Shown here: piece after piece, positions 8,249 to 13,213 of the stretch
Layout: every line of letters begins with the position of its first letter
How positions within the stretch are numbered: the stretch's first letter is position 1
DNA from: Roseomonas sp.
GTDB taxonomy: Bacteria > Pseudomonadota > Alphaproteobacteria > Acetobacterales > Acetobacteraceae
Direction: 5' to 3'
Length of the DNA stretch: 64,000 bases
NCBI GenBank assembly: GCA_020249435.1
Contig: JADCFQ010000021.1
Location: forward strand, 1 to 64,000
The notes under the pieces: generated by a model
Told to the model about the DNA's origin: nothing
Databases searched by the model: none
The model's input: only the letters and a program-made list of their open reading frames with translations
Translations under genes and position numbers: made by a program

Positions 8249-9412
8249 TCAGCGCTTGCTAAGTGCCTCCGCGAGGCGCCCGCTCGCTTCGCGGATGCGA
8301 GCCTCACTTTGCGCGAAACACAGGCGCAAATGGCCCTCCCCGCCCGCACCAAAGGCAGCCCCCGGCGCAATGCCAACCCGCGCCGAATGCAGCAGGGATT
8401 TCGCCAGCGCCAAGCTATCCGTGCAGCCTTCCACCTTCAGGAACAGGTACATCGCCCCATCCGGGCGCGGCGCGGTAACACCGGGCACGGCGGAAAGCGC
8501 GGCATGGGCGATATCACGCGCCTTCAAATAACGCGCGCGGGTTTCCGCAATAAAAGCATCCCCCTGATCGAGCGCCACGACACCCGCATGCTGGATGAAG
8601 GTGGGTGCGGAGGACATGTTGAATTCATTGAGCTTGCCGATGGCATCCATCAAGGCCGGGGGGGCGACAATCCAGCCCAAGCGCCAGCCGGTCATGGCCC
8701 AGGATTTGGAGAAGGAATTGACCGAAACAACGCGATCCTGCTCATCGGCGATTTCCAGGAAGGATGGCGCGGCATCGCCGGCGAAATAGAGCCTTTCATA
8801 GACATCATCAGCAAGAATCCAGGTGCCGGTCTGGCGGCATTTTTCCAGGATGGCGCGCTGTTCATCAGCCGTCAGCGTCCAGCCGGTGGGATTGCCGGGG
8901 CTGTTCAGGAAAAGCAGCTTGGTCTCAGGCGTAATGGCCGCCAGCAATTCATCCAAATCCGCGCGCCAGATACCGTTCATGAGGCGAAGCGGCATATCCG
9001 CGACTTCCGCGCCCATCACGCGCGCAATGCCATCCATATTGGGCCAGGCGGGGGCGGGGATGACCACGCGATCACCCGGCGAAAGAAGCGCTTGCGCCAC
9101 CAGCATCAGCGCATTGACGCCCGATGCCGTGACGGCGACGCGCGATGTGCCGACAGGGCGATTATTCCGCTTGAGGTAAGCCGCAATGGCGTCCCGCAGT
9201 GGCGGAATACCTGGGTTGGGCGCGTAGAAGGTTTTGCCTTCATCCAACGCCAGCTTCGCCGCATCGCGCACGAAATCCGGCGTGACGGTATCCGGTTCCC
9301 CGAACCAGAGGGGAATGACATCCTGCATATAGCGCCCAGCCTCCGAGACCTCTCGGATCAAGGAGCCGGGGATTTCAGCAAGGGCGGGGCGGGGGGTGGG
9401 TTCGAAGCGCAT
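8249..9412 (-). CDS. PLP-dependent aminotransferase, class I/II
   Basis: This 387-residue fold-type I aminotransferase belongs to the aspartate/aromatic aminotransferase group. The PLP lysine lies in SFSKSWAMTGWRLGW. Other conserved points are NSPGNPTGW (substrate/PLP Asn), the DDVYERL Asp/Tyr pair and the C-terminal LRLCFA carboxylate-binding Arg. The substrate is not predictable from sequence; related proteins are annotated as aspartate or broad-range amino acid transaminases. It is transcribed away from the methyltransferase remnant and converges on the small protein gene. Confidence 0.92.
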   Translation of the reverse strand: MRFEPTPRPALAEIPGSLIREVSEAGRYMQDVIPLWFGEPDTVTPDFVRDAAKLALDEGKTFYAPNPGIPPLRDAIAAYLKRNNRPVGTSRVAVTASGVNALMLVAQALLSPGDRVVIPAPAWPNMDGIARVMGAEVADMPLRLMNGIWRADLDELLAAITPETKLLFLNSPGNPTGWTLTADEQRAILEKCRQTGTWILADDVYERLYFAGDAAPSFLEIADEQDRVVSVNSFSKSWAMTGWRLGWIVAPPALMDAIGKLNEFNMSSAPTFIQHAGVVALDQGDAFIAETRARYLKARDIAHAALSAVPGVTAPRPDGAMYLFLKVEGCTDSLALAKSLLHSARVGIAPGAAFGAGGEGHLRLCFAQSEARIREASGRLAEALSKR

Positions 9413-9474
9413 GGCGCGCGTTTAGCGCGAGGCGCGTGGGTTGGACAGGGTGGGGTTGACCGCTGCGCGGCGCT

Positions 9475-9810
9475 TCACGCCGTGTAGCGGCCATCTTCCA
9501 AGTGCCGCGCCTGGCCCAGCGCCACCAGGGTTTGCAGCATGGCTTCCATCTGTTCCGCGCGGCGTGGGGCGCCTTGGAAGCGCCGGGCGATATCGCGGGC
9601 AGAGGCTGGGGCGCCGCGCAAGGCAGCGCGGAGTGCCACATATTGCGCGGGGGCTTCCTTGGGCCAGGCGCGGCTGGTGCCGGCTTCCGCACCCTCCACG
9701 GCCATTTCCGTCTGCACGGCGGGGCGGCTGGTATCCTTGGGCGCCTGAAATTCCGGGCGGAGCCAGCGGATTTGCCCGCGCGCATCCGCCTTGAACCCCA
9801 TGCGGGCCAA
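9475..9810 (-). pseudogene. C-terminal remnant of a large DNA methyltransferase
   Basis: About 111 residues on the minus strand match, in my recollection, the C terminus of large class I SAM-dependent DNA methyltransferases (type IIL/MmeI-like): IRWLRPEFQAP, then a linker with WPKEAPAQYVALRAAL, and a small winged-helix-like end (LVALGQARHLEDGRYTA). It opens with TTG at 9810 or a leftover upstream reading, with no credible start. The catalytic core (motif I and NPPY) is absent. The matching N terminus lies at 12170-12316 on the same strand, in the correct order, beyond the foreign gene. I infer a broken gene. Confidence 0.55.
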
Positions 9811-10384
9811 CCCTCCTCGCGCACCGGCGTGACCGCGACGGTTTCGATTGATACCGGGCGCGGGCGAAGTATTGCGGATGTGGTGACTGGGTTTTTGGTT
9901 TTTTCAGCGCCTCTTCACCGCGAGAGCACGCCGACAAGACTCCCTGAACCACCTTTGAGCGCGTTTTCCGAGCAGCGCCATGATGGCACTTTGCTTGGAA
10001 CTGCTGAAGAAAGGTTGGAGGCGCTGCGCTTTCGAAGGTGCGGGCTCTGCGATTGATTGAGCCCAAACAGATAAGGGGATGAGCGGTTGTTAAACGTGAT
10101 GGGGAAGCCTTATGCCCAGCTGGCCGATCCTGAGAGGGAGAGACACTCCCCGCTCTACGTCAAATCTCGAAAAATCAAATGATCGCGGTCACCATCGAAA
10201 CCGAAGTTAGCTGACCTGTTTAGTGGTGCCAATTGGTTGGCGGTGAAGTGCGACATTTCTTTAAAAATGGATTTGCGCTAAGCGTTAATGTTCCATACAT
10301 TAGCGTCCAAGCTTCCGCGAGAGACTAACGAAGGTTGCCACCTACAGTGGCCAAACGGAGCTTCCCTTTTACACAGAGGTGCAT
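9811..10384 (+). other. junction region, composition shift, no intact gene
   Basis: GC falls progressively from the methyltransferase remnant toward the 10385 gene. A short open stretch at 10099-10180 (beginning GTGATG, encoding MGKPYAQLADPERERHSPL and a few further residues) has protein-like composition but no recognised match and could be a fragment. An imperfect hairpin (CGTTAATG / CATTAGCG) lies near 10283-10305. I see no transposase, terminal inverted repeats or target-site duplication. Confidence 0.45.
10273..10301 (+). promoter_or_regulatory. candidate promoter of the DUF5677-like gene
   Basis: TTGCGC at 10273-10278 and TACATT at 10296-10301 have a 17-base spacer, inside an AT-rich stretch 84 bases before the start codon. 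The spacer and -10 are partly within an imperfect inverted repeat. This is a pattern match only. Confidence 0.3.
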
Positions 10385-12064
10385 ATGGCAAAAAAGTCAA
10401 AAAGAAAAAATATAGGTCCAGACAAAAGATCAAAGCGAGAATTCTATTCGTCTCTTGATAGTCACCAGCGCCAAGGTGGAAAATTACTCGCGCCATTCAC
10501 CGCAAAGCTCGGCACAAAAATTTCTTGGGCCAACTGGCGTGATGGCGCTATGCACGACGTTTTGTGGGCCACTCTAATTAGGGGAAATTTATCTCAGGAA
10601 GAAGCCCTCCATATCTTCCGTCAGGTGGTTGCGGCGGCCAGAGAAAATAAAAACCGTGACGCATTCAAAGAAACATTCATTACGCACTCAGTTCTTTCAG
10701 TTCTTCCTGCACAGGTATTTGATGAAATGCTGGCGCCCGTCCTTAGAAACACCCGAACACTAGACCTTCTCCGCCCGCTACTTTTTTTTCGTTCGCTGCC
10801 CGACCGACATCATTGGGCTCGGCACCTCTCTGAGCCTGATCCGGCGCTACATTCCGATCCTCTGATGCGCGCAGTCGCCTCCTGTCTCGATCATCAATCT
10901 CAGGAAGCGACCGATATTCGCTGGTTCAAACTTACCTACTTCGCTGTTGTATGCGACCGCATTCGGCTTGCAATGGATGACAAAGAGGCGGCATCGGAGC
11001 AAATGGAGGAGTGGCGCCTCTATCCGAACTACGGGGACCAACATGCGGTGCGCCCCTCCATCCGAGCTGCCGAAATGATGCTCAGGAGCACCAATGAGAA
11101 GTCCGGACAACCGATTGAGGTGCCGGTATCACTCGAAGCTAGTATGCCGCCAGCTTGGCACGATGGTTTCTGGCAGGAATGTCTGAAGGCAACGCCTTGC
11201 ATTTTACCTCCTATCAAAAAACCGGAACGGATCAACTGCGATGCGTATCGCGAGCAGTTCCTTATGATGCTTAGTGGACTATCCGAGCATTTTATAGGGA
11301 CCCTGAAAAACACCAACGTGGATGCGCGGAGAGACAGCGCATTTGGCTTGGTCATGTATGCCATTGTGCTTTGTCTCGGGCTAGTTCAAGTTCACCAGAG
11401 GGCAGAAGGACGAATCATACTTCGATCAATTGTTGAAATCTTTATAACTATTCGATTTCTCTCCCATCATGATAACCCAACACTCTGGGCACAGTACCGC
11501 AATCATGGTAATGGACAAGCGAAACTCGCATTTTTAAAGAACCTTCGGTCAGAAGACCTTCCAAATTTTGTCAGTCTGGAGGAGCTTGAATCTTACGCGA
11601 GCGAGGATATCTGGCAAGAATTTCAAGATATTGATCTTAAGTCTTGGTCAGACCGAAATCTGCGCGCAATGGCCGCGGAAGCGGGGATTAAGGATATTTA
11701 TGATAAGTACTATGATTGGTCTAGTGGATACATTCACGCTAACTGGGCTAGTATTCGGGACACAATATTCACGACTTGTTTGAATCCACTGCATCGCTTT
11801 CACCGAATTCCATTCATCCCGCGATTGAATATGCCGTCCGCCCTGCCCGATGGGGCTAAGCTTGTAAATGGCGCGCTCGACGTCATCGCTCAGTTATTTC
11901 CGCCCCTCAAGATGAGGATTAAACATCCTCGGTACGGGTCCGAAGGCGACGGTGAAGGTCAGGGTGAAGCTGAAGGGGTTGGCGAAGAGGAGCCGGAGCA
12001 GTCAAATGACGTGCCTGCCGATTTGAGCGAGGCTGCTGAGGCTGCGGACACGAACCTGAGCTAG
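10385..12064 (+). CDS. DUF5677-like protein of a foreign island, 559 aa
   Basis: The biological role is unknown. The N terminus is very basic (AKKSKRKNIGPDKRSKRE). A long helical middle follows. Around residues 320-440 a hydrophobic helix (FGLVMYAIVLCLGLVQVH) leads into RIILRSIVEIFITIRFL and later YDWSSGYIHANWASI. This order (R-x-x-x-E helix, then a Y-x-H-x-N helix) resembles DUF5677. The last 45 residues are a strongly acidic Gly/Glu tail. ATG 10385 has AGAGG five bases upstream; GTG 10379 is an alternative. GC content and codon use are far below the neighbours, and the gene sits between methyltransferase fragments, so lateral acquisition is likely. A defence role is only a possibility. Confidence 0.8.
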   Translation: MAKKSKRKNIGPDKRSKREFYSSLDSHQRQGGKLLAPFTAKLGTKISWANWRDGAMHDVLWATLIRGNLSQEEALHIFRQVVAAARENKNRDAFKETFITHSVLSVLPAQVFDEMLAPVLRNTRTLDLLRPLLFFRSLPDRHHWARHLSEPDPALHSDPLMRAVASCLDHQSQEATDIRWFKLTYFAVVCDRIRLAMDDKEAASEQMEEWRLYPNYGDQHAVRPSIRAAEMMLRSTNEKSGQPIEVPVSLEASMPPAWHDGFWQECLKATPCILPPIKKPERINCDAYREQFLMMLSGLSEHFIGTLKNTNVDARRDSAFGLVMYAIVLCLGLVQVHQRAEGRIILRSIVEIFITIRFLSHHDNPTLWAQYRNHGNGQAKLAFLKNLRSEDLPNFVSLEELESYASEDIWQEFQDIDLKSWSDRNLRAMAAEAGIKDIYDKYYDWSSGYIHANWASIRDTIFTTCLNPLHRFHRIPFIPRLNMPSALPDGAKLVNGALDVIAQLFPPLKMRIKHPRYGSEGDGEGQGEAEGVGEEEPEQSNDVPADLSEAAEAADTNLS

Positions 12065-12169
12065 CTGCTGTATCGCACCCTTGGCAGGGCGTTCCGCATC
12101 GCCGCCGCCGTCCAGGGTCCGCCGCAAGGAGTATTGATCCCCTTCTCGGCCAGCCGCGTTGACGGCGGC

Positions 12170-12316
12170 ACCCGTGGCGGGGTCTGGCTTTGGCACTTCA
12201 ATGATGGGGCAAAGCTCATCCAGGAAGCGGGCGTAATTGGCGCGCTCCGCCTGCGCGGTGCCGGACCAACGGGCGATGAAGGCTTCAATTTCCGGCAGAG
12301 GTGGCGCGCTTGGCAT
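12170..12316 (-). pseudogene. N-terminal remnant of the same DNA methyltransferase
   Basis: The minus-strand frame beginning with ATG at 12316 encodes about 49 residues typical of the start of large class I DNA methyltransferases: PEIEAFIARWSGTAQAERAN, then YARFLDELC and VPKPDPATG. After PDPATG the similarity stops; the frame stays open to 12002 but with unrelated residues overlapping the foreign gene. The missing part (several hundred codons with the SAM and NPPY motifs) has been lost rather than merely displaced, since only about 2.3 kb lies between the two fragments. Confidence 0.6.
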
Positions 12317-12424
12317 GTGTTGGGCGAATGTAACGAAGCGCGCGGGCTTGGCAAAGCCTGATTACGGGGGGTGGCTAAGGCCGGGCTTGCGCCCCATCAT
12401 CCCCCGCCAGAGGAATACCAAGCC

Positions 12425-13213
12425 ATGTCCACCGCCAGCCTGCCCGAAATCCGCGAAGCGGAAGCGCCCCCCGCGATTGCGGCGATTTATGCCGCCTTGA
12501 ATGAGGGTATTGGCATTGCCCAGGTGAACCTCATCTGGCGCCATGCGGCGGCCCTGCCTGGGGTGTTGGATTGGCTTTGGGCGCAGGCGGCGCCGGCGCT
12601 TGCAAGCGGGGCTGCGGCAGCGGCGCGGGATGCGATTTCCGCTGCCATCGCGCTGCCAAGCCCTGCCGCATCATCAAAGCCGCAGGATCACGCGGCGATT
12701 GCGGCTTTGGCGGAGATTTACAATCGCGGCAATCTGACAAATCTCGCGGTGCTTTCGGCCATTCAGCTGCGTGCGCAAGGCATGGCGGCTGGTGAGCGCC
12801 TTGCCCCCGCACCACGTGGCGCGATGTTGCCGGCCCCGCCACCCTTGCCAAGCTTGGCAGCCTTACCAGCCGCGCAACAGGCGCAGATACGCGCACTCAC
12901 GGCGGCGCATGGGCTATCGGATGCGGCGGTGGTGCCAAGCCTTTATCTGCATCTGGCGTTATGGCCGGAATTTCTGGCGCTTCTGCCCGAATTGCTGGCG
13001 CCATTACAGGCTGATGGCGGTTTGGTGCGCGCGCGCGATGCCGCGGTGGCTGCCGCGCGCCGGGCCGCGCCAGCGCTGATCGCCGCCCTTGGCAGAGCGC
13101 CCGCACCGCCAGCCGCCTTGCCCGCATTCCTGACGCGGCTTGAGGTTTTTGTGCGAGAGGTCATCCCCGGCATGGTGCCGGTTGGGCTATTCCTGCGCCG
13201 CGCCTTGGCGTGA
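12425..13213 (+). CDS. DehI-like halocarboxylic acid dehalogenase family protein
   Basis: This 262-residue protein resembles the helical DehI group (2-haloacid dehalogenases acting on both stereoisomers, and many uncharacterised homologues). Features are EAPPAIAAIYAAL near the N terminus, VNLIWRHAAALPGVLDWLWA, and a central YNRGNLTNLAVL. Catalytic function is not assured, because most genomic homologues have no proven substrate. ATG 12425 is preferred over the upstream in-frame start because AGAGGAA lies just before it and it gives the family N terminus. The 3' end overlaps the convergent ABC exporter gene by 27 bases. Confidence 0.75.
   Translation: MSTASLPEIREAEAPPAIAAIYAALNEGIGIAQVNLIWRHAAALPGVLDWLWAQAAPALASGAAAAARDAISAAIALPSPAASSKPQDHAAIAALAEIYNRGNLTNLAVLSAIQLRAQGMAAGERLAPAPRGAMLPAPPPLPSLAALPAAQQAQIRALTAAHGLSDAAVVPSLYLHLALWPEFLALLPELLAPLQADGGLVRARDAAVAAARRAAPALIAALGRAPAPPAALPAFLTRLEVFVREVIPGMVPVGLFLRRALA

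Follow-up and report, generated by a model that had tools for sequence, protein, structure and literature searches.

Aditi, attributed to Millman et al. in 2022, is reportedly an anti-phage system composed of two proteins, DitA and DitB. In the two records that carry it here, both plasmid records, from Clostridioides difficile and Streptococcus salivarius, DitA is followed directly by DitB; a 2026 review (PMC12926258) gives the mechanism of Aditi as unknown. The literature retrieved on Aditi, on MmeI and on defence hotspots and their turnover contained no title on a solo DitA, although no search was made under that name, and for the domain DUF5677 one Salmonella paper was found. Here we describe a DitA-like gene in a window of 64,000 nucleotides from Roseomonas sp. 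(assembly GCA_020249435.1, contig JADCFQ010000021.1, positions 1 to 64,000), the window being the whole stretch of DNA that was analysed.

In this window a type IIL (MmeI-like) restriction-methyltransferase gene has lost most of its length, its place being taken by a foreign DitA-like gene, at a locus that is variable among relatives and for which a parallel case exists. We consider it likely that the locus has this history and that the foreign protein has an anti-phage role which it fulfils on its own. The label G is used for genomes (G000 being the own genome, of 3.8 megabases in 62 contigs), L for fetched loci and C for contigs of the own genome, where the region lies on C14. Since one genome per species was sampled, the exchange cannot be dated within the species. 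The features are given below in base pairs (bp) of the window, with guanine-plus-cytosine (GC) content where it matters; EmrA is our own working name for the HlyD/EmrA-like gene.

8249..9412, minus strand: pyridoxal phosphate (PLP) aminotransferase, the conserved left neighbour (NCBIfam PRK06108.1, subfamily)
9413..9457, no strand: 45 bp in front of the aminotransferase start codon, where the variable region has its fixed outer edge in most relatives
9475..9786, minus strand: C-terminal remnant of an MmeI-like type IIL restriction-methyltransferase, residues about 1053-1155 (PADLOC profile; DNA and protein homology to relatives)
9773..10005, plus strand: 3' end (about 40 codons) of a HlyD/EmrA-like gene with a repeat of about 105 bp behind it, left end of the presumably imported segment
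10006..10384, no strand: low-GC (0.51) leader, upstream region of the DitA-like gene, without homologue in the fetched loci
10385..12064, plus strand: solo DitA-like protein of 559 residues, with DUF5677 at residues 336-460 (Pfam, PADLOC)
12064..12162, minus strand: high-GC (0.67) scrap between the cargo and the MmeI N-terminus, with a weak serine-recombinase resemblance in one frame
12163..12316, minus strand: N-terminal remnant of the same MmeI-like gene, residues 1 to about 51, start codon at 12316 (PADLOC, DNA homology)
12371..13213, plus strand: HYP, a hypothetical protein and the conserved right neighbour (synteny; weak DehI similarity at E 0.019, under the cut-off)

The two ends of one MmeI-like gene

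The sequence-only reading of this stretch had noticed two minus-strand fragments in the right order, with a low-GC plus-strand gene of 559 residues between them, and this arrangement is confirmed (GC 0.500). The fragments are real, but their bounds had to be moved: DNA homology ends at 9786 on the left, so that the C-terminal part had been drawn 24 bases too long at 9810, and at 12163-12168 on the right instead of 12170. That both are ends of one methyltransferase family agrees with the result that a single PADLOC profile, PDLC03627 (Type IIG restriction enzyme-methyltransferase, length 1136), matches the C-terminal part at profile positions 1027-1135 (E 4.7e-18) and the N-terminal part at positions 3-45 (E 1.3e-11). 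Pfam reported MmeI_N for the N-terminal part below the cut-off only (E 0.0014, 19.5 bits against a cut-off of 27) and no convincing match for the C-terminal part, and neither fragment was matched by NCBIfam. Chance or unrelated fragments were considered and rejected, as one profile covers both ends in order.

Aligned to the full-length homologue in L043 (1155 residues), the remnants correspond to residues 1-53 (89% identity) and 1053-1155 (86% identity), and a search of 35 genus genomes, the own included, gave no match at the own locus to anything between residues 53 and 1053. Because the remnants cover these two ends only, about 1000 codons have been lost relative to L043, where the earlier reading had spoken of several hundred. 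To the right, the DNA homology runs over 12163-12368/12370 with 95% identity to L122 and 91% to L043. The MmeI genes of L043 and L122 carry MmeI_N, MmeI_hel, MmeI_Mtase and MmeI_TRD, and the window copy has no complete MmeI domain, be it nuclease, helicase-spacer, methyltransferase or target-recognition. The restriction enzyme encoded by the window gene is dead, since it lacks the greater part of the N domain, which contains the nuclease, and the other three domains entirely. Full-length homologues without internal stops were found in 3 of 34 relatives of the same genus: G014 (the query itself), G034 (89%) and G026 (80%).

The own genome also contains a second, distant MmeI-like gene at C52:14870-17710, a 999-codon open frame with 36-41% identity in two main pieces, by which the host may still possess a type IIL enzyme.

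The DitA-like gene and its relatives

The gene at 10385-12064 on the plus strand starts with ATG and codes for 559 residues; a GTG at 10379 would give 561, and ACACAGAGGTGCAT, which precedes the ATG, is by eye a possible ribosome-binding site. Its GC content at third codon positions (GC3) is 0.50, and the four neighbouring frames that were measured have GC 0.63-0.71 and GC3 0.68-0.77. The DUF5677-like identity proposed earlier is upheld by Pfam (E 1.6e-19), and the profile search adds a match to the PADLOC DitA profile PDLC03826 (E 5.2e-54, residues 21-506), with 21-25% identity to the two Aditi DitAs. The open reading frame (ORF) is full-length and retains the conserved residues of the family: 38 residues are conserved to at least 90% in the 19 solo-family rows of alignment A3, from which the partial match L151 was left out, and are identical in all four rows of alignment A1, which includes both Aditi DitAs. 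R347, E351, H451, R458, H470 and H473 are among them.

A scan of the genome contigs with the single protein as query returned nothing, and the same scan with the two-row alignment A2 returned 19 named records holding homologues of 34-50% identity, presumably from Alpha-, Beta- and Gammaproteobacteria and Poribacteria, as we take the classes from the record names. Using the two DitBs as tblastn queries at E <= 1, nothing was found in the 19 homologue loci or in L128, where some flanks are short and L151 is partial; DitB itself is divergent, with 26% identity between the two records. Judged from these loci, the 19 homologues with no detectable DitB nearby would make up a solo-DitA lineage. The DitA-like protein may work like Aditi; it was not classed as an Aditi system because DitB was sought and not found.

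Homologues are rare in the sets searched, being present in 1 of 384 other genomes of the class, 1 of 397 other genomes of the phylum (a partial match) and 5 of 72,556 plasmid records, every one of the latter below 26% identity. As L134 contains all of L128, the homologue in G115 and the L134 record are one gene, not two. Ten foreign- or defence-looking neighbours were picked by hand at 5 of the 19 loci, a chosen sample that cannot speak for enrichment; five matched PADLOC models, namely an ATPase (L133), the TIR-TM, Hp1 and Hp2 models (L145) and a methyltransferase (L149), and five matched none. A phage origin of the gene was also considered and rejected: tblastn gave nothing in 50,697 phage records, and viral contigs contained no relative.

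The AlphaFold2 model of the protein is almost all-helical and of moderate quality (pLDDT 77.4, pTM 0.63). A sequence profile run against PDB gave four chains with E no higher than 1, the best at 0.0024; from their names (dTor, BGL) we take them for designed proteins. HEPN RNases have a characteristic fold and an R-x4-6-H motif; no HEPN family was among the Pfam hits of the 559-residue protein, for which the motif was not systematically searched.

Variable loci and the history of the exchange

The sequence-only reading had named two results that would speak against it, fragments from different families and a DUF5677-like gene conserved at this place. The fragments share one family, and no match to the DitA-like gene was found among the 34 relatives, of which several are incomplete assemblies, by which conservation at this place is rejected. 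A close aminotransferase with a readable flank is present in 15 of the 34 (L032-L046); 14 have a copy of 77-81% whose fetched stretches (L047-L060) are without the other eight query genes, and five have no close copy (G001, G008, G024, G025, G032). The interval between aminotransferase and HYP is spanned on one contig in 10 of the 15. It holds a TPR and an Amdase-like gene in five of these (L032, L036, L039, L042, L045), the Amdase-like gene only in three (L038, L041, L044), and HigA/HigB-type genes with a full-length MmeI in two (L035, L043), between the same neighbours as in the window. A methyltransferase is thus otherwise found at this exact place, as had been supposed. Amdase-like refers to PF17645, a domain tested in L038 only, the other loci being assigned by tblastn similarity; HigA/HigB domains were tested in L109 and L119 and elsewhere assigned in the same way. 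The stretch taken for HigB in L035 has stop codons in the frame tried and was left aside, and this HigB may be broken.

Among the unspanned loci, L033 holds TPR and Amdase-like genes, L034 offers 151 bases only, and L040 holds TPR, with HYP absent within the stretch. Beside the aminotransferase, L037 has HigA and a C5-methyltransferase, and L046 has HigA and a DndB-family gene followed by a truA-like ORF; neither contig reaches HYP. On contig L122 (from G034, a genome with 8% contamination) the aminotransferase is represented by its first 63 residues; the contig also has an EmrA 3' fragment, HigA/HigB-type genes and an MmeI of full length, with fmt farther along. In raw counts, defence-like content is present in 2 of 10 spanned and 2 of 5 unspanned intervals (L037, L046), plus contig L122 and the window. 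HigA- or HigB-like matches were obtained in L035, L037, L043, L046, L109, L110, L116 (partial), L118, L119, L121 and L122. In 12 of the 15 relatives, matches of 35-47 bp, the sequences being compared by eye as well, place the start of the variable part 43-47 bp upstream of the aminotransferase; L038, L041 and L044 have no such match. Content varies between conserved neighbours, as it does in a hotspot.

The parallel case, at another locus, is L113 (G005), where, behind an emrA-like gene, a 364-residue gene with GC 0.42 and an AbiJ_NTD4 match (E 3.4e-25) is flanked by both MmeI ends. Together with the other contents beside the same aminotransferase it backs the earlier suggestion of exchangeable defence cargo. 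The MmeI ends were tested in 12 intervals, each pair against sixty targets randomised by a first-order Markov model, with a threshold of score 50 and z 5. In L113 the C-end aligned over 49-67 columns at 85-94% (z 17.7-20.9) and the N-end over 168-182 columns at 66-69% (z 17.7-30.1), and none of the 60 randomised targets per pair reached the observed scores. The C-end only was found beside the DndB-family gene in L110 and L046 (z 9.7-22.4) and in L127 (z 35-51); in L109 a short stretch of 30-34 bases matched (z 6.8-7.9), immediately upstream of the HYP copy there. Nothing exceeded the threshold in four controls (L118, L119, L039, L032), nor in L037, L126 and L116.

The DndB-family gene, of 501 residues, lies at L110:948-2450 in the emrA locus of G007 and at L046:1787-3289 in the aminotransferase locus of G022, and the two copies are 99.4% identical across two species; therefore the same cargo is present at both loci, and the locus between aminotransferase and HYP has cargo in common with a second variable one (emrA-truA). 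This second locus, the DitA homology without DitB and the HlyD/EmrA-like 3' end at the left of the insert go beyond the sequence-only reading. Three further observations were made in the fetched loci. At L127:4860-5030 (G025), a further locus, an MmeI C-end remnant lies next to a RidA/YjgF-type gene, which by eye has a counterpart beside the AbiJ case in L113. L109:2690-3538 (G014) is a 75% similar second HYP copy behind emrA and HigA/HigB-type genes, and the aminotransferase locus of G014 also has HYP. A SoFic-type Fic gene (PADLOC E 2.1e-103) lies at L123:313-1518, also in G014, about 4.3 kilobases from a truncated emrA 3' end.

At the left junction, 9773-10005 matches the 3' end of the HlyD/EmrA-like gene and about 105 bases behind it; the full-length form in L070 has HlyD_D23 and HlyD_3 domains. 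This 3'-end sequence has matches (E <= 0.001) in 17 of the 34 relatives, of only 40-52 bases in G022, G025 and G028, and a second match in the own genome (C53, 90% over 123 bp). MmeI homology and EmrA homology have the stretch TGCCCG-C/T-GCGC in common, in which the L110 allele agrees at 10 of 11 bases and many other emrA alleles at one base fewer. Neither terminal repeats, inverted or direct, nor a target-site duplication were found at the insert ends. For 10006-10400 there was no DNA match in the fetched loci, and 12064-12162 had no homologue across its length in the sequences searched, a genus-wide query with 12040-12175 giving matches of 25-31 bp only, in 5 of the 34 relatives. A 45-residue frame in 12064-12198 (minus strand) resembles PF07508 Recombinase (E 0.14), PF20552 HTH_62 (E 0.14) and, by tblastn, plasmid sequence (E 3), all of which are weak. 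Truncated emrA 3' ends were also seen at several loci (the window, L122, L123, L124, L126), some with the repeat of about 105 bp, and sometimes directly beside cargo (HigA/HigB-type genes and MmeI in L122, a DUF6680 gene in L126).

We propose that the interval between aminotransferase and HYP is a variable locus which, within the genus, would receive defence genes among others, and that it earlier held a type IIL (MmeI-like) restriction-methyltransferase. The imported segment would consist of a foreign, low-GC, single-gene DitA homologue and the emrA-like 3' end, behind which it probably stood in its source. It would have replaced about 1000 MmeI codons, probably through recombination at short homologies, so that the host would have traded a presumed anti-phage function for a second such function. 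Most likely the DitA-like protein works by itself inside the cell, as a sensor and effector of phage infection in the style of abortive infection; this role is suggested because of the DitA homology and the company that the locus keeps. Its action against phage, its working as a single protein and the donor of the gene are inferred, as is recombination from an emrA-linked source.

Several results weigh against this history. Neither the own genome nor G115 gave a match to DitB (PDLC03827) in a search that recovers it in both Aditi-carrying plasmid records, and because this partner was not found, function cannot be transferred from Aditi. The structure gives no mechanism, with 0 Foldseek matches of the AlphaFold2 model at E <= 0.001 in PDB and BFVD. 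No donor was found, the DitA-like gene being in no other genome of the genus, and at the left junction perfect identity extends over 4 bp only, next to the switch, as the 11-bp homology has one mismatch. Furthermore, 8 of the 10 spanned relatives hold TPR and/or Amdase-like genes and no defence-like gene, and tblastn gave no HigA/HigB match in the window interval, though such matches stand beside MmeI in L035, L043 and L122.

Simple decay would explain the locus by a large deletion in MmeI and an independent insertion of the DitA-like gene into the wreck, MmeI being no target and the gene a passenger without a defence role. The insert shows no site-specific signature, and the breakpoints of the MmeI C-end differ (9786 in the window, the equivalents of about 9521 in L113 and about 9615 in L127), as random events predict. 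However, in L113 an AbiJ-type gene lies between the ends of the same MmeI gene, whose C-end stands beside a DndB-family gene in L110 and L046, and repeated pairing with defence-like cargo would be unlikely under random decay; the DitA-like gene is moreover a full-length ORF with the conserved residues of its family. We consider decay unlikely.

The same lack of terminal repeats or target duplication counts against a site-specific or transposable element that would carry the cargoes, with the emrA 3' end and HigA/HigB-type genes at its left and a serine recombinase at its right, the window being a degraded copy. Such an element would account for emrA 3' fragments beside cargo at several loci (L122, L126, the window), for HigA- or HigB-like matches at 11 loci, for the fixed outer edge, 45 bp upstream of the aminotransferase, in 12 of 15 intervals, and for the Recombinase-like scrap at 12064-12162. 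That scrap reaches E 0.14 only, and E 3 against plasmids; no integrase or transposase was seen by eye in the ORF lists of the interval, for which no profile search was made, and the window interval has no HigA/HigB match. This makes the element quite improbable in our view. An assembly artefact, by which an MmeI contig and a DitA contig were misjoined at the repeated emrA 3' end, is very improbable. The left junction does lie in sequence dispersed in the genus, with its second copy on C53, but the right junction also joins the DitA flank to the same MmeI gene, with no second match in the own genome reported when 24 of 69 first-look candidates were scored; both MmeI ends are in the right order and strand, and another species has an analogous structure (L113).

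Under the replacement of the MmeI-like gene, which we prefer, the locus appears to have been caught after one immune gene was replaced by another, with readable scars, and therefore defence turnover can be studied from its junctions. The solo DitA-like genes, which a further 19 named records from several classes contain, are candidates for a one-gene immune system smaller than the two-gene Aditi. A wider conjecture, to which we give some credit while doubting it on balance, is that the ends of type IIL genes serve as a reusable frame: defence genes (solo DitA, AbiJ-type, perhaps DndB-family) would be swapped in and would move, together with HigA/HigB-type genes and emrA 3' ends, between two or more chromosomal loci, the restriction gene being the landing site for its successors, and the solo DitA lineage would be an undescribed single-gene anti-phage system without DitB.

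Comparison with known systems

Compared with type IIL restriction-modification of the MmeI family, the window fragments correspond to the two ends of one MmeI-like profile, whereas the window copy keeps residues 1-53 and 1053-1155 only. The likeness to Aditi lies in the match to the DitA profile, in the 38 conserved residues of the two Aditi DitAs and in DUF5677, which is present in both; the window gene differs in that no DitB was found beside it or elsewhere in the genome, and in the low identity given above. As to AbiJ-type genes, the L113 gene has an AbiJ N-terminal domain and sits at the same position inside an MmeI gene, but the Pfam matches of the two cargo genes differ and PADLOC has no match for the L113 gene.

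With chromosomal defence hotspots (for instance PMC10121019) the locus has in common that its neighbours are conserved while its content varies, restriction, abortive-infection-type and toxin-antitoxin genes being part of that content. It differs from them in that most spanned relatives hold non-defence genes, in that one cargo is common to two chromosomal loci (L046, L110), and in that, in the window and in L113, one type of content is nested between the two ends of a different defence gene.

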